DNA of 34,415 nt, taken from NCBI RefSeq assembly GCF_000472285.1, contig NZ_KI421412.1, positions 100,626 to 135,040 of the forward strand. The letters are read 5' to 3'. The first letter of the stretch is position 1; each line of letters starts with the position of its first letter. The notes under the pieces were generated by a model that saw nothing but the letters and a program-made list of their open reading frames with translations, was not told the DNA's origin and made no database searches. Positions 23,966 through 34,415 of this stretch are shown one piece after another. The translations under genes and the position numbers were made by a program. Source of the stretch: Desulfuromonas sp. TF (GTDB taxonomy: Bacteria; Desulfobacterota; Desulfuromonadia; Desulfuromonadales; ATBO01).

Positions 23966-24025
23966 CCCGTAAGGAGGAAGATCCTTTCACCTCCGTCCTT
24001 GTGGCAGACCTTTTAATCTTTGCCG

Positions 24026-24055
24026 TTGACAAACCAAGCGCAGGCGGGGTATCTA
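24026..24055 (+). promoter_or_regulatory. Candidate promoter of the Rrf2 gene
   Basis: TTGACA (24026-24031), 18-bp spacer, TATCTA (24050-24055). The -10 is weak, as is common for activated or repressed promoters. Confidence 0.5.
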
Positions 24056-24087
24056 TTACTCCAAAGGTAAGCAAAGGGAGGTCAGGA

Positions 24088-24549
24088 GTGTTCATAACCC
24101 GCGCTACGGAGTATGCCATACGCGCCCTGCTCTATCTAGCGAAGCAGCCGCGGGGCGAGATCGTCTTCAAGAAAGATATCTGCAAGTCCCAGGACATCAC
24201 ACCGGCCTTTCTCACCAAAATCCTTCAACCGTTAATCAAAGAGGGTATCGTCGCTTCCCAGCGAGGGGTCGGAGGCGGCTTCTATCTGGCCAAAGACCCG
24301 GGCGAGGTTTCCCTGCTCGACGTGGTCAGGGCCGAAGAGGGCCCCCTGTCCCTGAATCAGTGCCTCGTCGAGGCGGGAAGCTGCGAACGGAGCGTTTTCT
24401 GCCCCGTACACGGGGCCTGGCAGGAAGTGCGGGACGAAATGGCCACCATTCTGGAGCGCCACACCTTTGCACGCCTGGTTCAGCAGGAAGAAGAAAAACG
24501 GCAGTCCCATGCATCTCGGGGGCCTGAACATCGAAAAAAACCTGCCTGA
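24088..24549 (+). CDS. Rrf2-family transcriptional regulator, IscR-like
   Basis: A 153-residue winged-helix regulator. The N-terminus ITRATEYAIRALLYLA, the recognition region QDITPAFLTKILQPLIKEGIVASQRGVGGGFYLA and the IscR-type ligand pattern C92-x6-C99-x5-C105-x2-H108 are seen; in IscR the matching C-x5-C-x5-C-x2-H binds a [2Fe-2S] cluster. It is therefore probably an iron-sulfur sensor, though it could be a cysteine-metabolism regulator. The start is GTG 24088 with GGGAGG six bases upstream; the frame extends 29 codons further through the promoter. It may act on the cys operon 2 kb downstream, whose promoter holds an IscR-like site. No isc genes are adjacent. Confidence 0.93.
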   Translation: MFITRATEYAIRALLYLAKQPRGEIVFKKDICKSQDITPAFLTKILQPLIKEGIVASQRGVGGGFYLAKDPGEVSLLDVVRAEEGPLSLNQCLVEAGSCERSVFCPVHGAWQEVRDEMATILERHTFARLVQQEEEKRQSHASRGPEHRKKPA

Positions 24550-24618: not shown

Positions 24619-24668
24619 GGGCAAAAAACACCCTGGAGACCAGGAGGGTAAGTCATCCAGGGCGAATA

Positions 24669-24690
24669 AGGAAGCTGCGTCCAGCTTCCT
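24669..24690. repeat. Hairpin 3' of amtB
   Basis: Perfect 9-bp arms AGGAAGCTG/CAGCTTCCT around CGTC. On the minus strand TTATT follows, so it may be a weak amtB terminator or an RNA 3'-end stabiliser. Confidence 0.5.
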
Positions 24691-24749
24691 GCAAATCGAA
24701 TTCCTTTTGCTTTATTATACTTCCGCCCCTTACGTGAGTCAAACCGGCT

Positions 24750-26362: not shown

Positions 26363-26587
26363 ATGGAAACGACGCGGCGCAGCATTGCCAAAGCACTCTC
26401 CTGGCGGATCCTTGCCACCGTGATCACATCGGTTCTTGTTTTAGTCATTACCGGCAAGGGCGAATTAGCCGCCACCGTCGGACTGGCGGATACCAGCATC
26501 AAATTCTTTGTCTACTTCGGCCATGAGCGGCTGTGGAATCGTATCAATTACGGCCGGGAGCAGAAGCAGCCTGAGTACTCCATCTGA
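26363..26587 (+). CDS. DUF2061 small membrane protein
   Basis: A 74-residue protein of family DUF2061, seen repeatedly beside sulfate-assimilation genes; its function is unknown. Two hydrophobic stretches (about 14-32 and 40-56) flank the motif GLADTSIKFFVYFGHERLWNRI, and the N-terminal RRSIAKALSWRILATV is typical. The start METTRRS at 26363 is chosen for family fit; GAGAG lies eleven bases upstream. It is first in the cys operon, 16 bp before cysH, so it is likely co-translated with it. A role in sulfate or sulfite handling at the membrane is only an inference from context. Confidence 0.88.
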   Translation: METTRRSIAKALSWRILATVITSVLVLVITGKGELAATVGLADTSIKFFVYFGHERLWNRINYGREQKQPEYSI

Positions 26588-26603
26588 AGAACGGGAGATG
26601 ATC

Positions 26604-27314
26604 ATGGAAAACATCGCTATGCAGATCCGCCCTTCCGAGCTGACGACTGAAAACTCTCCGATGGAGATCCTCCGTGCCGGGGTTGAAATGGCCGGAGGGC
26701 CGGTCGCCCTGGCCTGCTCTTTCAGCGTCGAAGACGTGGTAATCATTGACATGCTGCACCAGACGGCGTCGCCGGCTACGGTTTTCGCGCTGGATACCGG
26801 TCGCCTGAACGAAGAAACTTATGAGGTCGCCGAGGCGGTGAGCGAACGCTACGGGATCGGCATCGACTGGTATTTCCCCCGGCGGGAGGACGTCGAGAAC
26901 ATGGTACGCGGAAAAGGGCCCTACTCTTTCCGCGAAACCCTTGAGAGCCGTCACGAATGCTGCCGCATTCGCAAGATGGAGCCTCTGCAGCGGGCGCTGC
27001 AGGGCCTCTCGGGATGGATCACCGGCCTGCGCCGCGAGCAGAGCGTCACCCGCAGCGACCTCTCCCCCATCGAAACCGACCACGGCAACGGCGGCATTCT
27101 CAAGATCAATCCGCTGATCGGGTGGAGCGAGAAAGAGGTCTGGGAGTACGCCGAACAGCATCGAATTCCGACCAACCGCCTGCACAGACAGGGCTATCCC
27201 TCCATCGGCTGCGCTCCCTGCACCCGGGCTGTGGCACCCGGCGAACATCCCCGGGCCGGGCGCTGGTGGTGGGAGAATCCGGAGCACAAAGAGTGCGGCC
27301 TGCACCGACGTTAG
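26604..27314 (+). CDS. cysH: Adenylyl-sulfate (APS) reductase
   Basis: Thioredoxin-dependent reduction of APS to sulfite; 236 residues. The four cluster cysteines of the [4Fe-4S] APS-type enzyme are present: CC at 119-120 and C203/C206 in GCAPC; PAPS-type CysH lacks them. The catalytic nucleophile C231 is in the C-terminal ECGLH. The substrate PP-loop-like ACSFSVEDVVIIDM is intact. It should thus use APS directly and need no APS kinase. The start at 26604 has GGGAG six bases upstream; an ATG two codons earlier abuts the SD. The gap of 241 bp to cysD is filled by repeats. Confidence 0.96.
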   Translation: MENIAMQIRPSELTTENSPMEILRAGVEMAGGPVALACSFSVEDVVIIDMLHQTASPATVFALDTGRLNEETYEVAEAVSERYGIGIDWYFPRREDVENMVRGKGPYSFRETLESRHECCRIRKMEPLQRALQGLSGWITGLRREQSVTRSDLSPIETDHGNGGILKINPLIGWSEKEVWEYAEQHRIPTNRLHRQGYPSIGCAPCTRAVAPGEHPRAGRWWWENPEHKECGLHRR

Positions 27315-27555: not shown

Positions 27556-28461
27556 ATGAACATGAAAATGACCCATCTGCGGCAGCTCGAGGCGGAGAGC
27601 ATCCATATCATCCGGGAGGTCGCGGCCGAATTCGAAAACCCGGTGATGCTCTACTCCATCGGCAAGGATTCCGCTGTGATGCTCCACCTGGCGCGCAAAG
27701 CCTTCTATCCTGCCAATCCCCCCTTTCCGCTGATGCATGTGGATACCACCTGGAAATTCCGGGAGATGATCGAGTTCCGCGACCGGATGGCGCACGAATG
27801 CGGTTTTGACCTGCTCATACACACCAACGAGGAAGGAGTCAGACAAGGGGTCTCCCCCTTCACTCATGGCTCGGCCCTCTATACAGACATCATGAAGACC
27901 GAGGGGCTCAAGCAGGCACTGAACAAATACAAGTTCGACGCTGCCTTCGGCGGCGCCCGGCGTGATGAGGAGAAATCCCGGGCCAAGGAGCGGATCTTCT
28001 CTTTCCGCACCGCCAGTCACCGATGGGACCCCAAATGCCAGCGCCCCGAGCTGTGGAACATTTACAACGCACGGGTCCGCCCCGGCGAGAGCATCCGCGC
28101 TTTTCCGCTGTCCAATTGGACCGAGCTCGACGTCTGGCAGTACATCTACCTGGAGAATATCCCCATCGTTCCTCTGTATTACGCGGCGGTGCGGCCGGTG
28201 GTGGAGCGCGACGGGATGCTGATCATGGCCGACGACGAACGCCTGCAGCTGCGCCCCGGAGAAAAGGTCGAAATGAAATCGGTACGCTTCCGCACCCTGG
28301 GGTGCTATCCCCTGACCGGAGCCGTCGAATCCACGGCTGCCACCCTCCCCGAGATCATCCAGGAGATGCTCCTCACCCGCACCTCCGAGCGCCAGGGCCG
28401 CCTTATCGACCACGACCAGGCGGGATCGATGGAGAAGAAGAAGCAGGAAGGATATTTCTAG
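27556..28461 (+). CDS. cysD: Sulfate adenylyltransferase subunit 2
   Basis: The ATP-pyrophosphatase subunit of ATP sulfurylase, 301 residues, forming APS from sulfate and ATP with CysN. The PP-loop [18 protein letters not shown] is at 33-50. [35 protein letters not shown] and the C-terminal [10 protein letters not shown] are diagnostic. ATG 27556 and ATG 27562 are both usable, with GGAAAG upstream. It is separated from cysN by a 157-bp inverted repeat, unusual for a pair normally tightly linked. Confidence 0.97.
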
Positions 28462-28463
28462 TC

Positions 28464-28598
28464 GTAAGCTGTAAGCTAGTAGCTATAAGCTGAAAAAAAT
28501 CTTCTTACATTCCCGAACGTTGAACTCAAGACAAAATAGCCATAAGTTTTTTGCTCCAGGCTTTTTCCTTTAAGCTTACAGCTTAAAGCTTATAGCTA
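28464..28598. repeat. Inverted repeat of AGCTNTA-type units
   Basis: The left arm (28464-28492) and right arm (28571-28598) are runs of AAGCTGTA/AGCTATA heptamers in opposite orientation, with an A/T-rich 78-base loop. It fills the cysD-cysN gap. Confidence 0.8.
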
Positions 28599-28618
28599 TC
28601 GAAATCGGAGATTTCGAT
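28598..28618 (+). promoter_or_regulatory. Hairpin with the cysN Shine-Dalgarno in its loop
   Basis: Perfect 9-bp arms ATCGAAATC (28598-28606) and GATTTCGAT (28610-28618) with loop GGA. The only SD candidate GGAG (28607-28610) is in the loop, and the ATG follows the stem directly at 28619. Folding would be expected to affect initiation; function is unproven. Confidence 0.55.
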
Positions 28619-30445
28619 ATGGCCCACCAGTCTGAATTGATCGCCAGCGACATCCACGCCTATCTCAAGACCCAGGAAGAGAAGGGGATGCTGCGCTTCA
28701 TCACCTGCGGCAGCGTCGACGATGGCAAGAGCACCCTCATCGGCCGTCTTCTCTGGGACTCGAAAATGGTCTTCGAGGATCAGCTCGCCGCCCTGGAGGC
28801 GGACAGCCGGCGTGTCGGGACGCAAGGGGAAAAAGTCGACTACGCCCTGCTCCTTGACGGCCTGCAGGCCGAGCGCGAGCAGGGGATCACCATCGACGTC
28901 GCCTACCGCTTCTTCTCCACCGACAAACGGAAGTTCATCGTCGCCGACACCCCCGGGCACGAGCAGTACACCCGCAACATGGTTACCGGCGCATCCACCG
29001 CCCAGGTTGCGGTCATTCTCATCGACGCCCGCAAGGGGGTGCTCACCCAGACCAGGCGGCACAGCTATCTTGTATCGCTGGTCGGCATCCGCCACGTGAT
29101 CCTCGCCATCAACAAGATGGACCTGGTCGACTACAGCGCCGAGCGCTTCTCGGCCATCCGCCAGGAGTACGAAAACTTCGCCGCCGGGCTAGGCTTCGAC
29201 CAGATTGCCGCCATCCCGATCTCCGCCCTTGAAGGGGACAATGTCCTGACCCGCAGCGACAAAACTCCCTGGCACCAGGGGCCGACCCTGATGGAGTATC
29301 TGGAAACGGTCCAGGTCGCAGACGCCGCAGTCCGCAAGCCCTTCCGCATGCGGGTGCAGTGGGTCAACCGTCCCAATCTCGATTTCCGGGGATTCTGCGG
29401 CACCATCGCTTCGGGCGCGGTCCGCCCCGGAGACGACGTGGTGGTCACCTCTTCCGGCCAGGTCAGCCGGGTCAAACGGATCGTCACCATGGACGGAGAT
29501 CTGGAGAAAGCCGTCGCTGGGCAGGCCGTCACCCTGACTCTGGCCGACGAGATCGACATCAGCCGCGGCGACACACTCGCCTCCTCCGATGAACGCCCTT
29601 ACCACGCAGACCGTCTCGAAGCCAAGGTGGTCTGGATGCATGAGGAACCTCTGGCTCCCGGGCGCAGCTACCTCCTCAAGGCCGGCTCCTCCACCGCCCC
29701 TGCCCAGGTCGTCGAGCTCAAGTTCAAGGTCAACGTCAACTCCCTGAGGCAGGAGTCTGGAGAAACCCTCGAACTCAATGAAGTCGGGGTATGCACCTTC
29801 AGCCTGGACAGGCCCGTCTCCTTCGATTCCTATCGAGAGAACCGCGGCACCGGCAACTTCATCCTTATCGACCGATTCACCAACGCAACCGTGGGCGCCG
29901 GAATGATCCATCAGCCGCTGCTCCAGTCCGCCGGCGACCAGTGGTCTAAGATCAATGTCGACAGACAGGCCCGCGCCGAGCGCAAGGGGCAGAAGCCCCG
30001 GATTCTCTGGTTCAGCGGTCCGGAAGGCGTTGACCTCCCGGCCATCGCAGCGCTGGTGGAAAAAAGGCTCCACTCCCTGGGTCGGCACACCTATCTCCTG
30101 GACGGTGCAAATCTGAATCGCGCACTTAACGCTGACGCCGATACCGCCGGCGGAAATGGAGGAGAGCAGATCCGGCGGGTTGCCGAGGTCGCAAGGCTTT
30201 TTGCCGAAGCCGGGCTGGTCGTTCTGACCTCCTGCGCCTCGTCCGGTGAGGACGTTCAGCTTGCCCGGGAGGTTCTGGCCGGAGAAGTTTTCACCGAGAT
30301 TTTTGTCGACATCCCTCCGGAAGCATCCGGCCGGCAGGGGGCCGCAGACGGCGTCGACGCCATCTTTATCAGTGACGTCCGGCGATCCGGGGAGGATCTG
30401 GCCGAAGAAATCGTGAGAAAAATTGGTTTTTCTGCTAAAGTTTAA
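28619..30445 (+). CDS. cysN: Sulfate adenylyltransferase subunit 1 (CysN) with degenerate APS-kinase-like C-terminus
   Basis: GTPase subunit of ATP sulfurylase, fused to a CysC-like domain; 608 residues. The GTPase part is complete: G1 GSVDDGKST (31-39), DTPGHEQY and NKMDLV, followed by two beta-barrel domains to about 445. From 460 the chain clearly follows APS kinase ([36 protein letters not shown]) but the P-loop is GPEGVDLPA (467-475, no Lys or Ser/Thr), DGDN is DGAN (495-498), the SPxRxxR segment is absent and the YKKARAG lid is missing. The kinase is therefore almost surely inactive. The adjacent APS-using CysH makes it dispensable. The 157-bp spacer to cysD and the SD hairpin suggest separate control. 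Confidence 0.95.
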
Positions 30446-30552
30446 AAATTGTGTTCGGCCGAAAGCGGACCAGACGCGGCTATTGGATTGATTCGAGAAT
30501 TCCTTCCATGAATTCCGAAGACCCATATCATCGTTTCGCAAAGGAGATCAAC

Positions 30553-31509
30553 ATGAGCCAGATCTACACGGACAATTCCCTCTCTATCGGCCGCACCCCA
30601 CTTGTACGCCTCAACCATCTCTCTCCCAAAGGAGGGGCGACCATCCTGGGAAAGATTGAAGGGCGCAACCCCGCCTATTCCGTCAAGTGCCGCATCGGCG
30701 CATCGATGATCTGGGATGCGGAGCAAAAAGGACTGCTCGGCCCCGGGAAGGAAATCGTCGAGCCGACCAGCGGCAATACCGGCATCGCCCTCGCTTTCGT
30801 CGCCGCCGCACGCGGCATTCCCATCACCCTGACCATGCCGGAGACGATGAGCCTGGAGCGGCGCAAGGTGCTCAAGGCCTTCGGCGCCAACCTGATTCTC
30901 ACCCCCGGCGCCAAGGGGATGGGTGGCGCGATCGCCGCCGCCGAGGAACTGGCCGCCTCTGATCCAGGCAGATACGTTCTGCTGCACCAGTTCAAGAATC
31001 CGGCGAACCCGGCCGTCCACGAGCAGACCACGGGTCCTGAGATCTGGGAAGATACCGAAGGCGGCATCGACATCCTGGTCTCCGGCGTCGGCACCGGCGG
31101 AACCATCACCGGCGTGTCACGCTATATAAAGAACACCAAGGGCAAGGCGATCACCTCGGTTGCCGTAGAGCCGACCGATTCACCGGTGATCAGCCAGAAA
31201 TTTGCGGGTGAGGAACTCAAACCGGGACCGCACAAGATCCAGGGGCTCGGCGCAGGCTTCATTCCCGATACCCTCGACCTCTCAGTCGTCGATCAGGTCG
31301 AACTGGTAACAAATGAAGAGGCGATCGAGTTCGCCCGCCGCCTGGCGAAAGAAGAAGGAATTCTCTCCGGCATCTCCTGCGGTGCCGCCGCCGCGGTGGC
31401 GGTCCGCCTCGCCTCCAGACCGGAGAACGCCGGCAAGACCATCGTGGCCGTTCTGCCCGACTCCGGCGAGCGCTACCTCTCCAGCGTCCTGTTCGAGGAC
31501 CTGGCTTGA
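30553..31509 (+). CDS. cysK: Cysteine synthase (O-acetylserine sulfhydrylase)
   Basis: PLP enzyme joining sulfide to O-acetylserine; 318 residues and very close in sequence to E. coli CysK. The PLP lysine is K45 in [18 protein letters not shown] (71-77) binds the substrate carboxylate, and GVGTGGT holds the PLP phosphate. [11 protein letters not shown] closes the chain. The start at 30553 has AAGGAG seven bases upstream; the frame is open a further 34 codons without support. It ends the cys operon, 107 bp after cysN. No serine acetyltransferase gene is visible. Confidence 0.97.
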
Positions 31510-31605: not shown

Positions 31606-31745
31606 CGTCATTATTGAGAGTGGTGGAGGGAAAGGCCCTGCGAAGCCACAGCAACCGGTCCACCGTCGCCAAGGCTATGGCGGATGTCAGGTGCTAATTC
31701 CTACCCGCCGAAGCCCTAGGGGCGAAGGCGGGAAAGATGAGGACG
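31606..31745 (+). promoter_or_regulatory. SAM-I (S-box) riboswitch
   Basis: The conserved core GAGAGTGGTGGAGGGAAAGG, then GAAGCCACAGCAACC and later GTCAGGTGCTAATTCCTACC match the S-box aptamer. The terminator at 31784-31820 is its expression platform: SAM binding should promote termination before the metI-like gene. Exact 3' border of the aptamer is approximate. Confidence 0.95.
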
Positions 31746-31854: not shown

Positions 31855-33006
31855 ATGAAACAGAAGAGCATGCTCACACTCGAAAGCCGACTCGTGCAAC
31901 TCGGGGTCGGCAGGGACGAACGGACCGGGGCCATCAGCTTTCCCGTCTACCCCAGCGCCACATACCGGCATCCGGCGGTGGGCGAGAGCACCGGCTTCGA
32001 TTACACCCGTTCGGGCAATCCGACCCGCCAGATTCTCGAAGAGGGTCTCGCCGAACTCGAGGGGGGCCGCCGCGGCCTGGCCTTCTCCTCCGGGATGGCA
32101 GCGCTCACCACTCTCTTCCTGCACTTTTCAGCCGGTGACCACCTGGTTGTCTCCGAGGACCTCTACGGCGGGACCTACCGGGTTCTCGATCAGATCTTCG
32201 CCAAACTGGGGTTGAGCGTTACCTATGTCGACACCACCTCCAACGCCGCCGTGGCGCAGGCCGTCACCGGAAGCACCCGGGCGCTGCTGGTGGAGACCCC
32301 CGGCAATCCGCTGCTGGGAGTCGCTGATCTCAGCGCGCTGGCCGATCTCTGCCGGGAGCGAAAACTGCTGTATATCGTCGACAACACTTTCCTCACCCCC
32401 GTTCTCCAGCGTCCCCTGGCCCTGGGGGCCGATATCGTGATACACTCGGCGACCAAATACCTGAGCGGACACAACGACCTGTGCGCCGGGGCGCTGGTGG
32501 CCAGGGATGCAGAGATGGGAGAGAGGCTGTATTTTCTTCAGAACTCCACCGGCGCCATCCTCCCTCCCAGCGACTGCTGGCTGCTGATGCGCAGCCTCAA
32601 GACGCTGGCCCTGCGCATGGAGCGACACTGCGACAATGCCCTGCAAGTCGCCCGCTGGCTGAAGCAGCAGCCGCAGGTCACCGCCGTCTACTATCCCGGG
32701 CTGGAGGACCATCCGGGATACGCTTTGTCGCAGGAGCAGGCGAGCGGCTTCGGCGGCATGCTCTCCTTCCGGGTGAAAGATCCCCAGTTGGCCCGTAAGA
32801 TGCTGAAAAACCTGCGCCTGATCTCCTTCGCCGAAAGCCTCGGAGGGGTGGAATCGCTGATGACACTGCCGGCGGTCCAGACCCACGGTGACATCCCCGT
32901 CGAGGAGCGGGAAAGGCTCGGCATCTGCGAAAGCCTGCTGCGCCTGTCGGTGGGAATCGAGAGCGCCGGGGATATCATCGCCGACCTGGAACAAGCTTTA
33001 AAATAG
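31855..33006 (+). CDS. Cys/Met metabolism PLP enzyme, MetI-like (cystathionine gamma-synthase / O-acylhomoserine thiolyase)
   Basis: A 383-residue type I PLP enzyme. The PLP lysine is K201 in HSATKYLSGHND; YGGTYR and ETPGNP are family motifs. GESTGFDYTRSGNPTRQ and FAESLGGVESLMTLPAVQTH resemble B. subtilis MetI, which makes cystathionine or homocysteine from an acylhomoserine. Substrate use cannot be fixed from sequence. The start at 31855 has AGAGGA upstream. It follows a SAM-I riboswitch, so it is a methionine-pathway gene repressed when SAM is high. It precedes a second member of the family, as metI-metC do in Bacillus. Confidence 0.93.
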   Translation: MKQKSMLTLESRLVQLGVGRDERTGAISFPVYPSATYRHPAVGESTGFDYTRSGNPTRQILEEGLAELEGGRRGLAFSSGMAALTTLFLHFSAGDHLVVSEDLYGGTYRVLDQIFAKLGLSVTYVDTTSNAAVAQAVTGSTRALLVETPGNPLLGVADLSALADLCRERKLLYIVDNTFLTPVLQRPLALGADIVIHSATKYLSGHNDLCAGALVARDAEMGERLYFLQNSTGAILPPSDCWLLMRSLKTLALRMERHCDNALQVARWLKQQPQVTAVYYPGLEDHPGYALSQEQASGFGGMLSFRVKDPQLARKMLKNLRLISFAESLGGVESLMTLPAVQTHGDIPVEERERLGICESLLRLSVGIESAGDIIADLEQALK

Positions 33007-33052: not shown

Positions 33053-34198
33053 ATGACCGAGAAAAACTACCGTCCCGCCACCCTCCTGGTCCACCAGGGG
33101 ACAGACCGCGACCCCGCCACCGGAGCCGCCGCCATCCCCATCTATCAAGCGTCCACCTACCACCACCAGGGAGGAGAGCCGGGCAAATACGATTACGCCC
33201 GCAGCGGCAACCCCAGCCGGGACCAGGTGGAAGAAGCGATCGCCCTTTTAGAAGGAGGGGTGCAGGGCTTCGCCTACGCTTCCGGCATGGCCGCCATCGG
33301 CAGCGCCCTCTCCCTGCTCAGAAGCGGCGACCACCTGATCGCTCCCGACGACCTTTACGGCGGCTCCTATCGCTATCTCAGCACGATTCTCCCCCAACAG
33401 GGAATCGAGGTCTCCTTAGTCGACCAGACAGACCTCGCGGTTCTCGAGGAGACGATTCGCCCCCAGACCAGGGCCATCTTCCTGGAGACCCCCTCCAACC
33501 CCCTGTTCAAGATCACCGACCTGCGGGGAGTGGTGGAAATCGCCCGGCGAAGGGGATTGCTCACCTTCCTGGACAACACCTTCATGACCCCTCTGCTGCA
33601 GCGGCCTCTCCACCTCGGCGTCGACGTGGCGATCCACAGCGCCACCAAGTTCCTCGGCGGCCACAGCGACCTGCTCGCCGGACTGGTCACTACCGCCGAC
33701 CCGGAACTGGCCCGGGAGCTCAAGCGGTTCCAGAACGCCTTCGGCGCGGTTCTCGCCCCTTTCGACTCCTTTCTCCTCGCCCGCGGGATAAAGACACTCA
33801 AGCTGCGCCTGGAGGCGGCCCAGGCCGGAGCGCAGATCCTCGCCGAACGCCTTCGGAGTCATCCGGCGGTGAACCATGTCTATTACCCGGGCCTCTCGGA
33901 ATTCCCCGGCAGGGACCTGCATCTCTCCCAGGCGGACGGGCCCGGAGCGGTTCTCTCCTTCGAGCTGAAGGAGAAGGTTCAGGTGGCGCCCCTGCTGGCA
34001 ACGGTGAAGCTGCCCATCATCGCCCCGAGCCTCGGTGGTGTGGAGACGATCCTGACCCACTGCTGGTCCATGTCCCACGCCGCCATCCCGGCCCCGGTCA
34101 AACGGGAGCTCGGCATCCGCGAGACGCTGGTGCGCATCTCCGTCGGCATCGAAGACCCGGAGGATCTCTGGGAGGATTTGAACGAAGGGTTGTCGTAG
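33053..34198 (+). CDS. Cys/Met metabolism PLP enzyme, MetC-like (cystathionine beta-lyase)
   Basis: A 381-residue paralog of the preceding enzyme. The PLP lysine is K199 in HSATKFLGGHSD. AIPIYQASTYHHQ, PGKYDYARSGNPSR, DDLYGGSYRY and LTFLDNTFMTPLLQRPLHLG resemble B. subtilis MetC, which cleaves cystathionine to homocysteine. Gamma-lyase or synthase activity cannot be excluded. The start at 33053 follows AAAGGA. The TAG stop lies in a GTAGGG palindrome. Together with the MetI-like enzyme it would complete transsulfuration from cysteine to homocysteine. Confidence 0.92.
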   Translation: MTEKNYRPATLLVHQGTDRDPATGAAAIPIYQASTYHHQGGEPGKYDYARSGNPSRDQVEEAIALLEGGVQGFAYASGMAAIGSALSLLRSGDHLIAPDDLYGGSYRYLSTILPQQGIEVSLVDQTDLAVLEETIRPQTRAIFLETPSNPLFKITDLRGVVEIARRRGLLTFLDNTFMTPLLQRPLHLGVDVAIHSATKFLGGHSDLLAGLVTTADPELARELKRFQNAFGAVLAPFDSFLLARGIKTLKLRLEAAQAGAQILAERLRSHPAVNHVYYPGLSEFPGRDLHLSQADGPGAVLSFELKEKVQVAPLLATVKLPIIAPSLGGVETILTHCWSMSHAAIPAPVKRELGIRETLVRISVGIEDPEDLWEDLNEGLS

Positions 34199-34300: not shown

Positions 34301-34415
34301 CGTCTTTATCGAGAGTGGTGGAGGGAAAGGCCCTGTGAAACCACAGCAACCGATCCGCCTTTGCAAAGGCGGGTGTCAGGTGCTAAATCCTTCCTGTTGA
34401 AGCCTCAGGGCGAAC
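34301..34415 (+). promoter_or_regulatory. SAM-I (S-box) riboswitch, cut by window end
   Basis: The same core as the first copy (GAGAGTGGTGGAGGGAAAGG, then GAAACCACAGCAACC and GTCAGGTGCTAAATCC). The 3' strand, expression platform and controlled gene lie beyond the window. Confidence 0.93.

Follow-up and report, generated by a model that had tools for sequence, protein, structure and literature searches.

A C-terminal domain of CysN in Desulfuromonas sp. TF that has lost its APS kinase site and has probably become a structural part instead of an enzyme

A stretch of 34,415 nucleotides from Desulfuromonas sp. TF (contig NZ_KI421412.1, positions 100,626 to 135,040), called the window here, carries on its forward strand the gene order cysH (26508-27314), cysD (27556-28461), cysN (28619-30445) and an open reading frame at 30451-31509, which we take from its sequence to be cysteine-synthase-like. 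CysN is the EF-Tu-like GTPase subunit of ATP sulfurylase and ends in a C-terminal domain related to APS kinase, in which the catalytic residues are lost. The locus raises the question of what such a domain is kept for, next to a reductase that would use APS directly.

The cysN gene is a single open frame of 608 amino acid residues with no internal stop, in agreement with the original prediction of an intact frame. Residues 1-452 (28619-29974) are, as judged by their sequence, an ordinary CysN, with 669.5 bits against the TIGR02034 cut-off of 336.1. CysD, the catalytic subunit of the sulfurylase, scores 530.6 bits with TIGR02039. The adjoining CysH had been described as APS-using, and this is borne out by its 262.3 bits with TIGR02055 (cut-off 235.3) and by its CC...CxxC cysteines, which we take to be the iron-sulfur cysteine pattern of APS-type CysH. 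PRK02090, the PAPS/APS-reductase model, is likewise passed (269.4 versus 154). The cysteine pattern is present in 43 of the 45 CysH proteins of the set, including 26 of 26 in the group of the window CysH (window included), and the two proteins without it both fall in the P-loop group. The real start of cysH is probably near 26598.

The C-terminal domain was modelled as CysN residues 445-608 (29951-30442). Its Pfam match to APS_kinase (PF01583) covers residues 460-570 with an E-value of 1.6e-18 and 67.7 bits (cut-off 21.1), and the domain searched alone gives 70.5 bits. The original prediction had placed the domain at residues 461-608; its homology stands, but its start has to be moved, since a conserved linker helix begins near residue 449 (29963). 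The catalytic elements are altered as had been claimed. The P-loop GLSGAGKST of the paralogue L001 aligns with GPEGVDLPA in the window (residues 467-475, 30017-30043), which contains no Lys and no Ser/Thr, and thus departs from the pattern GxxGxGK[ST]. The sequence DGAN replaces DGDN at residues 495-498 (30101-30112), with the catalytic Asp changed to Ala, and both the SPFR motif and the lid (KGLYxKARAG) are absent from the domain. In the M. tuberculosis CysNC, the kinase part of which is active, Arg497 contacts the sulfate and adenine of APS, and Asp480 and Arg483 contact APS as well, according to PMC4373884. The alignment puts A, N and G of the window CysN at the positions of Asp480, Arg483 and Arg497, respectively. 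With these changes the domain would be a pseudo-APS-kinase without kinase activity.

The family models treat this protein differently. TIGR00455, the NCBIfam apsK equivalog model, is not reached by the window CysN (70.2 bits, cut-off 138.7). PRK05506, named 'bifunctional sulfate adenylyltransferase subunit 1/adenylylsulfate kinase', is passed with 879.7 versus 715, and for this reason the protein would be annotated as bifunctional. A standard family model of this kind would credit PAPS synthesis to organisms without a strong APS kinase match.

It is important to consider whether a frameshift, or an error in sequencing or assembly, masks a working kinase, as the genome is available as a draft in 17 contigs. 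The P-loop, DGDN, SPFR and KARAG are found in none of the three forward frames of the domain region, and the same state occurs with open frames in 30 other genomes. As far as the three forward frames and the relatives show, a simple frameshift or an error of the kind that the original prediction had named as a possible refutation is therefore rejected. This explanation has practically negligible probability.

The whole window CysN was searched against 136 genomes of the order, 78 of which gave a match at E ≤1e-80. There were 94 match rows, three from the own genome and 91 from others, and 80 of these 91 were read (the 11 rows left out are from G102, G105, G107, G055, G135 and G071, one of G058, two of G045, G110 and G002). 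The 80 relatives, the window and L001 make up the 82 CysN rows compared. The P-loop is lost in 31 of them. A cysH gene is seen adjoining, in an operon of the order cysH-cysD-cysN, in 26 of these 31 rows, and the five without cysH in view (L040, L075, L081, L093 and L110) are all at contig ends. The P-loop is kept beside an adjoining cysH in 16 of the 82 rows, and it is kept with no cysH in the stretch in 32. In the latter group DGDN, DRxEN and the KGLY lid are retained in 31 of 32 rows; the exception is L105, a gene cut by its contig, which has a P-loop with a DQEH state and no CysH seen. When whole genomes are considered, 29 of the 31 that have a P-loop-less CysN tail contain a CysH, and none was found in G016 and G133, the latter being 67% complete. 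Genes of the PAPS_reduct family, which includes CysD, are present in 30 of the 31.

A tail-less CysN of 468-473 residues adjoins cysH in three genomes (L111-L113). Every P-loop-less CysN with its C-terminus inside the contig retains an extension, and the shortest one with both ends inside has 573 residues. None of the 31 P-loop-less frames ends at the CysN core (a contig end truncates L103 and L110). Some of these extensions are strongly decayed: the tails tested from L063, L090, L104 and L075 have no APS_kinase match in Pfam, and that of L065 gives 15.8 bits, which is under the cut-off. Their kinship is therefore based on alignment and position, and for L065 also on its model. The sets used below for conservation and entropy exclude L103, L105, L106 and L110 (contig-cut or shorter than 500 residues), the tail-less L111-L113, and L114, a duplicate of L048. 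A separate search with the tail only gave a match in 39 of 58 relatives, and its loci L004-L033 were left out of the analyses.

The AlphaFold model of the window tail, made with an alignment of 45 sequences, has a pLDDT of 88.7 and a pTM of 0.85. Among the Foldseek matches listed for it, all 50 are APS kinases or PAPS synthetases, and the comparison with 3uie_A (VIA) gives a Z-value of 19.8 and an rmsd of 2.4 Å for 152 aligned residues. The tail of L065 has only 130 residues and is far more decayed. Its model, made with 28 decayed tails, has a pLDDT of 89.4 and a pTM of 0.84, its best 18 PDB matches are APS kinases or PAPS synthetases, and it is superimposed on 3uie_A (VIA) with a Z-value of 17.4 and an rmsd of 2.4 Å for 130 aligned residues. 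The match of this model supports the descent of the L065 tail from an APS kinase domain. The claim that the fold-defining segments are kept agrees with the confident model of the window tail, and the domain seems to retain the APS kinase fold. The only CysN among 46 PDB sequences that match the window CysN at E ≤1e-20 is 1zun_B, with 434 residues, which represents the core alone.

As read from the aligned tails, the loss of residues is concentrated at the active site, while the linker-side pole is retained. Scoring was restricted to columns that are conserved among 109 intact CysNC proteins. In 29 decayed tails the active-site columns are kept at a mean of 0.14 versus 0.41 for the others (35 and 42 columns, p 4.4e-5), and without the lid region the values are 0.23 and 0.44 (20 and 39 columns, p 0.016). 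The entropies of the active-site pole and the linker pole are 0.30 and 0.91 in 30 intact proteins of the same order, and 0.98 and 1.10 in the 16 cysH-linked proteins with a P-loop. In the 29 decayed tails they are 2.47 and 1.55 (2.38 and 1.58 in 19 representatives), so that the order of the poles is reversed. The rise from the same-order intact CysNC to the decayed tails amounts to 0.64 at the linker pole versus 2.17 at the active-site pole, with p 7.7e-13; the two-pole split was drawn by hand from the secondary structure of the model after the kept columns had been seen, and the p values are indicative.

The retained parts can be located in the chain. In the linker helix region (residues 449-460, 29963-29998) all 29 decayed tails have the same residue in the columns of R452 and Q458. 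The end of helix 1 together with strand 2 (residues 480-494, 30056-30100) is among the best-kept stretches of these tails, and strand 3, EAGLVVLT (residues 530-537, 30206-30229), is also conserved in them. At the linker pole, 90-100% of the 29 tails retain the polar residues R452, K456, Q458, E481, H485 and H490 (the numbers of the window CysN are those of the model plus 444). Such a conserved polar set could belong to a docking platform by which CysDN holds CysH, or another partner, and hands APS on directly. The fact that decay goes with cysH in the order, through the adjoining genes, the contig-cut remainder and the CysH found in nearly all of the genomes, would agree with this. However, contact with CysN itself would account for the conservation on the linker side equally well, and a tail-less CysN linked to cysH exists. 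We consider a docking platform of this kind highly improbable.

Neutral evolution of the domain in relatives, which would have spoken against the original prediction, was tested by dN/dS with pairwise codon models. In 15 pairs of decayed tails, which share members, dN/dS is 0.07-0.33, and each value is below 1 at p ≤1.1e-3. The CysN cores of the same pairs give 0.03-0.08. For comparison, the tail values are 0.01-0.05 in nine intact CysNC pairs and 0.04-0.11 in seven cysH-linked pairs that keep the P-loop. Seven decayed-tail pairs without shared members give a pooled dN/dS of 0.20 (p 6e-145), by which a neutral pseudogene tail is rejected. In 12 of the 15 pairs the ratio of the tail dN/dS to that of the core is 3.9-9.5, which means that the constraint on the tail has weakened; in the remaining three the ratio is 1.1-1.8 at a tail dS above 3. 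Little weight can be given to the pairs of the window with L034, L035 and L039, in which the tail dS is 3.9-6.4. In pooled bins of the tail, dN/dS goes from 0.07 adjoining the core to about 0.34 in the loosest bin, and the core has 0.01-0.06 on the same scale. The decayed tails are under purifying selection, which is looser than in the CysN core and looser than before. Part of this constraint could be the upkeep of any soluble fold.

These values allow another explanation to be weighed. The tail might be a relic in slow decay that has no specific role and is retained since an unfolded or cut tail harms the protein. The raised ratio of tail to core in most of the decayed pairs fits this, and so do the repeated loss of the P-loop and the existence of tail-less and tail-swapped CysN proteins. 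However, a dN/dS of 0.2 is a strong constraint for a relic, the polar residues of the linker pole are kept in nearly all of the 29 tails, and the P-loop-less frames run on beyond the core. A mere relic appears rather unlikely. The reading that we favour, with fair confidence, is that the pseudo-APS-kinase is retained as a structural or assembly module of the CysDN that supplies APS to CysH, the assembly role being suggested by the kept pole.

The order in which the residues were lost can be approached from the relatives. Arg497 and Asn500 (M. tuberculosis numbering, Asn500 being placed by counting from the alignment) are both kept in 109 of 109 intact CysNC proteins, and neither is kept in any of the 16 cysH-linked proteins with a P-loop, in which the lid is altered too. 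In the 29 decayed tails R is found in seven at the Arg497 column and N in two at the Asn500 column, where the alignment is unsure. The present-day states suggest that the APS-binding contacts were lost first and the P-loop later.

A single origin of the P-loop loss is not supported. On the best tree of CysH, CysD and the CysN core (48 rows) the P-loop state requires eight changes, and the well-supported branches force at least three changes; this tree has many weak branches, and its bootstrap had not settled. The sister of the window on the joint tree is L040, which is P-loop-less (93/69), followed by L034 and L035 (88/91). On the CysN-core tree the rows nearest to the window are L034 and L035, both of which still have the P-loop. 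When the unlinked CysNC proteins are included in the CysN-core tree, the cysH-linked proteins are not one clade. L079 with an intact tail and L104 with a decayed tail, both from the genome G004, are sisters on the CysN core (100/100), which may reflect gene conversion or a recent duplication.

A separate cysC had been proposed as something to look for, and two further APS kinase domains that look intact are present in the own genome, one in a CysNC of 664 residues (237.8 bits) and one in a Sat-CysC of 594 residues (197.9 bits). Both have matches to the sulfotransferase family Sulfotransfer_3 in their neighbourhood, at a distance of approximately 4 kb for the CysNC and 12 kb for the Sat-CysC. 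The three PAPS_reduct matches of the genome are the window CysH and two proteins that are CysD by position and score. PAPS can thus be made elsewhere in the genome, and the window operon is free to serve the reduction of sulfate via APS alone. No other APS_kinase match above 100 bits, a threshold of our choice, is found in 23 of the 31 genomes with a P-loop-less tail; the eight that have one are G000, G004, G007, G021, G024, G036, G131 and G132. Among the 23 of the 31 genomes with a completeness of at least 90% and a contamination of at most 5%, 16 are without such a match. Seven of the 31 genomes also have other proteins with weak APS_kinase matches (20-25 bits), which we did not treat as kinases.

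The original prediction had offered a structural role and APS sensing side by side. In principle the domain could sense APS, PAPS or ATP and act allosterically, by analogy with the ATP sulfurylase of filamentous fungi, which has the same layout according to PMC3734648. The ATP sulfurylase of Penicillium chrysogenum (1I2D, 1M8P) has a C-terminal APS-kinase-like domain described as having no kinase activity in PMC3734648 and PMC3779200. It resembles the window CysN in that a presumably inactive domain of this kind sits at the C-terminus of a sulfurylase, and the model of the window tail matches 1m8p_A with a Z-value of 16.0 and 3.5 Å for 153 aligned residues, although a gluconate kinase reaches 14.4 there. 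However, the fungal enzyme is a Sat-type homohexamer with a domain that binds PAPS, while the sulfurylase subunit here is a CysN in which the APS-binding residues are gone. The residues that anchor APS and the phosphates of ATP are replaced in the window and poorly kept in the decayed tails, and Arg497 is already absent in 16 of the 16 cysH-linked relatives that still have the P-loop. In addition, the fungal sensor binds PAPS, yet most of the genomes with a P-loop-less tail are without a strong APS kinase. The residues thus speak against a binding of PAPS that inhibits the sulfurylase. A sensor is improbable, and APS sensing in particular is disfavoured by the A, N and G at the contact positions in the window, whereas the structural module proposed beside it remains the favoured role.

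Other known systems may be compared. The bifunctional CysNC (PRK05506), the kinase part of which is solved for M. tuberculosis, has the same gene architecture and is directly homologous; the difference is that its kinase site is intact (in 78 of the best 80 proteins in other groups) and that of the window is erased. The APS-kinase-like domain of the yeast ATP sulfurylase (1G8F, 1J70) is given no defined function in PMC3734648 and PMC3779200, and fourth domains like that of yeast are called part of a stable hexamer in PMC3779200. The L065 tail matches the yeast-type 1j70_C with a Z-value of 10.8 and 3.0 Å for 117 aligned residues, but this is no better than the scores of unrelated P-loop kinases among the matches listed, and the yeast protein is a eukaryotic one of a different sulfurylase kind. 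The APS kinases of Entamoeba histolytica and Thiobacillus denitrificans carry a dead sulfurylase-like domain that is credited with regulation or oligomer stability in PMC13213808. They are the mirror image, with the sulfurylase half dead and the kinase half alive, and the window CysN is the reverse. A described pseudo-kinase on CysN was not recognised in searches of the open-access PMC literature, which is no proof that none has been published. The nearest precedents are the domains of the fungal and yeast ATP sulfurylases, on an unrelated sulfurylase. Here the same idea would appear in a sulfurylase of a different kind, in which the ligand site is erased and the intermediates are still visible among the sequences.

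With the structural or assembly module as the favoured reading, the history of the locus may be proposed as follows. An ancestral CysNC, a fusion of the sulfurylase GTPase with an APS kinase, would have become tied to an operon with the APS reductase CysH. As CysH would use APS directly, the synthesis of PAPS by the same complex would have been useless or wasteful. The APS contacts (Arg497, Asn500 and the lid) would have gone first, and then the P-loop in several lineages, including that of the window. The folded core would have been kept as the CysD-CysN complex still depends on its linker-side pole, in all likelihood to fold, to be stable or to assemble. The PAPS for sulfotransferases would come from the second, intact CysD-CysNC and from the Sat-CysC elsewhere in the genome. 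The kinase domain of M. tuberculosis dimerises, mostly via helices 2 and 3, as described in PMC4373884. By analogy, such dimerisation could offer a way to join two CysDN units, and helix 2 is partly kept here.

A more far-reaching possibility, put forward tentatively, is that several lineages converted the kinase half into a scaffold that is obligate for CysDN, with the conserved pole as its docking face on CysN (perhaps on CysH), and that the dead versions reveal a second, non-catalytic role in the working CysNC too. The relatives with an erased active site, about 30 in number, separate the catalytic from the structural constraint and name the residues to change.

Beyond the order, a scan of named genomes gave 589 matches, of which the best 80 by whole-protein similarity were considered; this ranking favours intact tails. 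The three motifs pass in 78 of these 80 CysNC proteins of other groups and show small changes in two, and no CysH was found in the stretch examined around any of the 80 loci. This set serves as a measure of how conserved the motifs are and does not show that other groups are free of decayed tails. In the phylum 17 further CysN loci were read (L194-L210). L198 and L204-L206 look intact, and L210 keeps the P-loop and DGD. Among the remote ones, DGD is changed in L202, L207, L208 and L209, and L203 has a strongly decayed tail with no P-loop; no cysH was seen in the stretch of these five. The adjoining CysH is therefore not the sole setting of decay.

The CysN proteins of four genomes of the class (L194-L197) have a conserved tail of another kind, approximately 105-125 residues long. 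There is no Pfam match for the two of these tails tested, and the profile comparison, based on four sequences only, gives no kinship to the pseudo-kinase (probability 0.13%). The existence of these other tails and of the tail-less L111-L113 means that the kinase-like domain is not required by every CysN. Many CysN matches in the class come from open frames of approximately 545-635 residues, of which only L194-L198 were read, and it may be common in the class that the CysN tail has decayed or been replaced. In L199-L201, which represent three genomes from a single family of the phylum, CysN carries a phage-lysozyme-like C-terminal stretch in frame. It matches PF00959 with an E-value of 1.8e-14 in L199, and L200 and L201 are alike by eye. 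A lysozyme-like stretch is unusual on a GTPase such as CysN, and it may be a further appendage with no catalytic role.

Several minor features of the window were also observed. The gap between cysD and cysN (28462-28618) contains near-inverted, AT-rich repeats around 'taagcttatagct', as seen by eye. An atoC RNA motif at 24624-24718 on the reverse strand barely reaches its gathering score (50.8 versus 50) and sits between the frame 24001-24549 and another frame, presumably ammonium-transporter-like. Two SAM riboswitches (Rfam RF00162) are found on the forward strand, at 31608-31743 (72.5 bits) and at 34303-34403 (58.0 bits). The first of these is located upstream of two neighbouring genes, 31855-33006 and 33053-34198, which we take to be trans-sulfuration-like.
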